The notes under the pieces are model-generated. The model saw only the letters and a program-made list of their open reading frames with translations, did no database searches and had not been told where the DNA came from. A stretch of 64,000 bases of DNA, from positions 62,001 through 126,000 of the IMG/VR virus record IMGVR_UViG_3300027759_000053; one strand, given 5' to 3'. Origin of the DNA: a virus. Shown here one piece after another: positions 63,855 to 63,955 of the stretch; within the stretch, counting starts at the first letter, position 1, and each line of letters starts with the position of its first letter. The position numbers were made by a program, and so were the translations under genes.

Positions 63855-63879
63855 AAAAAAAAAGGCCGAAGCCTTTTTT
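63855..63879 (-). terminator. Strong rho-independent terminator after pqqA
   Basis: AAAAAAGGC / GCCTTTTTT 9-bp stem with a TTCG loop and a T run on the minus strand, beginning 1 base after the pqqA stop. Confidence 0.92.
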
Positions 63880-63880
63880 A

Positions 63881-63955
63881 TTATCTATTTGCAATATACA
63901 TTGTGATTTCAAAACCAAAACGCATATCTTGTGCTGCTGGTGTAATCCATGCCAT
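63881..63955 (-). CDS. pqqA: PqqA, ribosomal precursor peptide of the cofactor PQQ
   Basis: A 24-residue peptide starting [12 protein letters not shown] and ending [10 protein letters not shown]. The Glu16-x3-Tyr20 pair is the residue pair that PqqE cross-links and that becomes the PQQ skeleton; the RFGFE context and the ANR end match bacterial PqqA, and the length is normal. AAGGAG lies 7 bases before the ATG and a terminator follows at once, so it is its own transcription unit. No pqqB-E genes are visible; the host would have to supply them. The promoter must lie near or beyond the right edge. Confidence 0.93.
   Translation of the reverse strand: [24 protein letters not shown]

Follow-up and report, generated by a model that had tools for sequence, protein, structure and literature searches.

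Why would a T4-like virus carry a gene for PqqA, the peptide precursor of the cofactor PQQ, and none of the enzymes that process it? The question is raised by a small gene near the end of the stretch of DNA analysed here (the window; 64,000 nt, positions 62001–126000 of the 144,478-base IMG/VR record IMGVR_UViG_3300027759_000053). The window and its flanks encode a T4-type DNA polymerase (E = 6e-189), a clamp loader, PhoH, an endolysin and thymidylate synthase, the phage has eight tRNAs, and we regard the carrier as a large virus with freshwater-type bacteria as hosts. From this content, and from the presence of pqqA in cultured phages as well, the gene resides in a genuine viral genome, as is required of a phage auxiliary metabolic gene. 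The phage also encodes a ClpA-like ATP-dependent protease subunit (window 18198–20480; PHROG E = 1e-237) and several twitch-domain radical SAM proteins (L004:10050–17363, L005:1035–2303), none of which is PqqE.

The pqqA gene occupies 63881–63955 on the minus strand and has 24 codons, with an ATG start and a TAA stop. Its product matches the Pfam PqqA model PF08042 over the full profile (positions 1–19 of 19; score 36.3 bits, curated cut-off 21.1 bits; E = 5.3e-9), and no second match was found across the 144,478-base record. Glu16 and Tyr20 stand in the E-x3-Y spacing of the motif that is turned into PQQ, and a loose, degenerate PqqA DNA pattern had a single match in the window, whereas 100 shuffles gave none. 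A Shine–Dalgarno sequence, AAGGAG (63963–63968, minus strand), lies 7 nt upstream of the ATG. Downstream, an intrinsic terminator (63858–63879, minus strand) has a 9-bp stem, a UUCG loop and a T tail; folded as RNA it reached −11.6 kcal/mol (z = −3.9), unmatched by any shuffle, and a hairpin upstream of the ribosome site was no better than shuffles (z −1.0). The first-pass annotation had marked 63855–63955, which spans pqqA and its terminator, and had described a canonical 24-codon PqqA on a phage, with Glu16 and Tyr20, a strong ribosome site and its own TTCG-loop terminator; all of these were confirmed, and the family-model search that it proposed gave a single match above the cut-off.

To what extent is the gene alone? 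No pqqBCDE gene was found in this phage record. Searches for PqqE above cut-off, a PQQ-dependent alcohol dehydrogenase and a methanol dehydrogenase likewise found none, either here or in 25 further large phage records with pqqA. Scanning IMG/VR with two PqqA DNA patterns returned solo pqqA in at least 230 contigs, near-duplicates possibly among them. The fetched flanks of viral pqqA loci contained pqqB, C, D or E in 0 of 232 cases, and those of bacterial pqqA loci from one of the two patterns contained pqqBCDE in 64 of 76. A search for pqqB–E elsewhere in the phage genome had been suggested earlier, and as none is present, the proposed reliance on host PqqB–E is supported.

The viral copies are set among terminase, portal, capsid, exonuclease, polymerase and endolysin genes. 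A Shine–Dalgarno sequence is present at 222 of 227 copies, and a terminator-like site lies within 80 nt of pqqA in 89 of the 227, against 1.15% of random places. Loss of the Glu/Tyr pair in related phages had been named beforehand as evidence against a working gene; when a second IMG/VR scan left the Glu and Tyr positions of the pattern fully open, both residues were kept in all 120 contigs returned. Restricted to codons on which the search pattern placed no constraint, dN/dS was ∼0.15/0.97 in copies of the methylophage (methylotroph) type and ∼0.16/0.93 in those of the Burkholderiales type, a ratio of ∼0.15–0.18. Phage pqqA is under purifying selection, and selection for the product is what an auxiliary metabolic gene should display. 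Four further viral contigs (L051, L062, L110 and L117) carry another PqqA type, ending EISVGLEINCYACAE, and are probably from phages of another host group.

Cultured phages carry the gene too. By tblastn against named phage genomes, PqqA was found in nine methylophage records (four of Melnitz, and Venkman, P19250A, MEP301, MEP401 and MEP402) and in one uncultured podovirus. The cultured ones, phages of OM43/LD28 bacteria, resemble the window in having a solo PqqA of 23–24 aa with a ribosome site, at 59–68% identity to the window peptide, but they differ in PqqA type (methylotroph-type, ..TEMRFGFEVTMYVMNK in most), in neighbours and in lineage. In all nine isolate records pqqA is either without a CDS or overlain only by a hypothetical one annotated in the reverse direction, no matching PqqA family was found in PHROGs, and PqqA is not mentioned in the publications on Melnitz, MEP301 and MEP401/402. 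The prediction that gene callers miss so small a gene is thus borne out by the nine isolate records and the gap in PHROGs. The opposite-strand hypothetical proteins over pqqA at L129:4967–5062 (Melnitz) and L132:2067–2195 (the podovirus) are likely to be spurious calls that hide it. In terminase searches, P19250A, MEP402/401 and MEP301 did not appear as relatives of each other among the matches listed, and Melnitz is T4-like; thus at least four phage lineages carry pqqA. No match to PqqA was obtained in those relatives of MEP402 that infect Vibrio, Lentibacter or Pseudomonas. Since several lineages have the gene and it was not found in these relatives on other hosts, pqqA appears to follow host metabolism rather than phage ancestry.

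We consider it likely that this is a functional stand-alone pqqA, supplying precursor to host PqqB–E and so keeping PQQ-dependent alcohol dehydrogenases loaded. The gene would be transcribed and translated during infection, and its peptide would join the host pathway, where PqqD would present it to PqqE, which would cross-link Glu16 with Tyr20, and PQQ would be completed by a protease together with PqqB and PqqC. The added PQQ would then load periplasmic PQQ-dependent alcohol dehydrogenases of the host, yielding electrons and carbon for phage replication. PqqA is consumed one molecule per PQQ and PqqB–E are reusable; therefore pqqA alone may be worth carrying once host transcription drops. The gene, its signals, its conservation, its viral setting and the lack of the other pathway genes are seen directly in the sequences; expression, conversion to PQQ and a benefit to the phage we infer. 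On this reading, these viruses probably maintain host alcohol oxidation during infection.

Studies of bacterial PQQ synthesis bear on this proposal. In Acinetobacter, putting Asp in place of Glu, or Phe in place of Tyr, in PqqA abolishes PQQ, and in Klebsiella PqqA protein is 20-fold above PqqC/E (PMC2294125). Methylophilaceae have 3–12 pqqA copies beside a single pqqBCDE (PMC4109929), a methanol-grown producer has five (PMC9851590), and up to seven were present in the genomes sampled here. The solo copies of Methylophilaceae are like the phage gene in that only the number of pqqA is raised while the enzymes stay single-copy, although the former are chromosomal and the latter is viral; by analogy, one extra phage copy would repeat the hosts' own copy-number tactic. 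Counting against precursor supply, Methylorubrum extorquens without pqqA still makes 10–20% of its PQQ (PMC2294125). Because of this residual synthesis, and because many hosts have spare copies, precursor may not limit PQQ.

A surplus of phage PqqA could instead act in the opposite direction, by tying up PqqD/PqqE or stalling the pathway, so that less PQQ is made and periplasmic alcohol oxidation is shut off. A small peptide in excess could indeed titrate PqqD, but we think such a decoy improbable. The phage peptides are normal substrates in sequence and agree letter for letter with the host PqqA of small methylotroph-type genomes: the peptide of small genomes with three identical pqqA copies recurs in 17 phage copies, and two host PqqA peptides are matched exactly by 30 phage copies. 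Moreover, a decoy would gain from losing both reactive residues, yet these are kept in 120/120, and hosts add pqqA copies themselves. It is likewise highly improbable that phage radical SAM proteins turn the peptide into a product other than PQQ. This record does encode at least four with twitch domains, plus others, but they are not PqqE, their genes are far from pqqA, and no radical SAM gene is annotated in small pqqA phages such as P19250A, MEP301 and MEP402. That pqqA is a non-functional passenger, or host DNA misbinned as virus, as is the case for one 'Acinetobacter phage' pqqA record, is scarcely credible and largely refuted by its presence in isolated phages, its phage-type neighbours, the absence of pqqBCDE from the viral flanks (0/232), the low dN/dS and the retained ribosome sites. 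The record in question, 'Acinetobacter phage MD-2021a' (L128, CAKLQF020000010.1), was rejected as a phage: it is a bacterial contig, in which pqqABCDE is accompanied by genes for polyphosphate kinase and molybdate transport.

If precursor supply is the function, which host oxidation would it serve? The first-pass annotation had named methanol oxidation. Among one-per-species bacterial genomes, the window-type PqqA ending occurred in 76 contigs, most of them from Comamonadaceae, Limnobacter and Thauera, with no entry titled Methylophilaceae among the 76. In a sample of 300 genomes of the order Burkholderiales, a 3.0 Mb genome (G170) gave the best match to the phage PstS (76%; next best 70%) and encodes PqqA and a homologue (69%) of the FmdA-like protein described below; its matches to the PQQ-alcohol-dehydrogenase family number ten. 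The closest relatives of PqqA, PstS and the FmdA-like protein are thus from Burkholderiales (Comamonadaceae or G170) and not from pelagic methylotrophs, and their genomes have several PQQ-dependent alcohol dehydrogenases each, which may act on methanol or on another alcohol. Since these three genes point to Burkholderiales outside the pelagic methylotrophs, the host is probably a member of that order that has PQQ-dependent alcohol dehydrogenases and does not belong to the OM43/LD28 methylotrophs. The GC content of the phage, 39%, does not decide methanol oxidation by the host. Hence the methanol proposal is supported only in part: relatives do have PQQ-dependent alcohol dehydrogenases, but the nearest ones are not pelagic methylotrophs. 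The PstS of the phage (L002:7261–8286) has 77–87% identity to that of nine other large pqqA phages; PstS lies 2–12 kb from pqqA in 9 of 13 PstS-bearing records, a closeness that is only loose.

The next gene downstream of pqqA, past its terminator, belongs to the FmdA/AmdA family (62466–63710, minus strand; PF03069, E = 6e-89), and its product has an apparent signal peptide, judged by eye. Identity as the FmdA formamidase was rejected, since the NCBIfam equivalog scored 213 of 500 bits and its cut-off was not reached; only the wider family applies. Between this gene and the pqqA terminator lies a promoter-like site (TTGACT-17-TATAAT, 63793–63821, minus strand; 11/12 match), a weak candidate, as such sites occur in the number expected from shuffles. 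The partner of the FmdA-like gene (61838–62461, minus strand; likely start near 62407) encodes a small, putatively exported protein of 207 aa with no family match even at E = 10. A homologue of it directly follows the FmdA-like gene in 10/10 bacterial regions and in the IMG/VR contig L320, in which a small membrane-type ORF, pqqA, the FmdA-like gene (86% identity), the exported partner and a 404-aa protein occur in that order. Because the pair is also adjacent in the ten bacterial regions, it looks like a captured host operon. A close homologue of the FmdA-like protein (E < 1e-120) was found in 19 of the 300 genomes, and 18 of these 19 have a PQQ-dehydrogenase above cut-off, against 54 of the remaining 281 (Fisher P = 2e-11); pqqA is present in 18/19 against 44/281 (P = 8e-13), with P values possibly inflated by shared phylogeny. 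No PQQ-dehydrogenase or pqqA gene was found beside the operon in the ten bacterial regions (10–20 kb each), so the link with PQQ is one of co-occurrence only.

Upstream of pqqA, just past the window end, lies a rubrerythrin gene (record 126309–126743; L002:2306–2743 in our set, where the record is G000), 607 bases from pqqA centre to centre. A homologue of rubrerythrin, AhpC or AhpD lies within 1.5 kb at 29 of 117 Burkholderiales-type viral loci, always on the same strand as pqqA, compared with 2 of 110 other viral pqqA loci. Of 26 mostly large records, this one included, ten have a close rubrerythrin, and in nine of the ten pqqA lies no more than 1.3 kb away. As some of the phages are related, independent events are fewer than loci. 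PqqC releases hydrogen peroxide on oxidizing the precursor to PQQ. It is therefore conceivable, though we hold it only tentatively, that pqqA and an enzyme that removes peroxide (rubrerythrin or the pair AhpC and AhpD, according to the phage) form a PQQ-boosting cassette directed against PqqC peroxide, joined in this phage and L320 by the exported FmdA-like protein and its partner acting alongside PQQ-dependent dehydrogenases. Such a cassette would amount to one slot filled by different peroxidases in different phages.

Neither the gene nor the idea is new. PqqA in the Lake Baikal methylophage population VP_266, with the same proposal of PQQ supply, was published in 2020 (PMC7678222), and viral pqqA is listed in a reservoir survey (PMC13188868). 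Like the phage studied here, VP_266 is T4-like and has a solo PqqA with the same proposed role. For the Baikal phages, Methylophilaceae were given as the hosts and a methanol dehydrogenase was reported (PMC7678222), whereas this record and the 25 other large ones have none and the host of this phage resembles another Burkholderiales group. In the open-access literature we found nothing on how widely pqqA is spread, on annotations having missed it, on phages of other Burkholderiales that carry it or on the cassettes, and these are the new elements.

With a gene of 23–24 codons absent from both PHROGs and published methylophage annotation, the function is undercounted. Cultured phage–host pairs exist, so the proposal can be tested directly. 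In cyanophages, psbA supplies a used-up part of a host energy system; phage pqqA likewise encodes a consumed component, with the difference that psbA replaces a protein lost to turnover and pqqA a cofactor precursor that is consumed. If precursor supply is right, many freshwater and marine phages would steer the alcohol oxidation of their hosts through a consumed cofactor precursor alone, an economical strategy parallel to that of cyanophage psbA.
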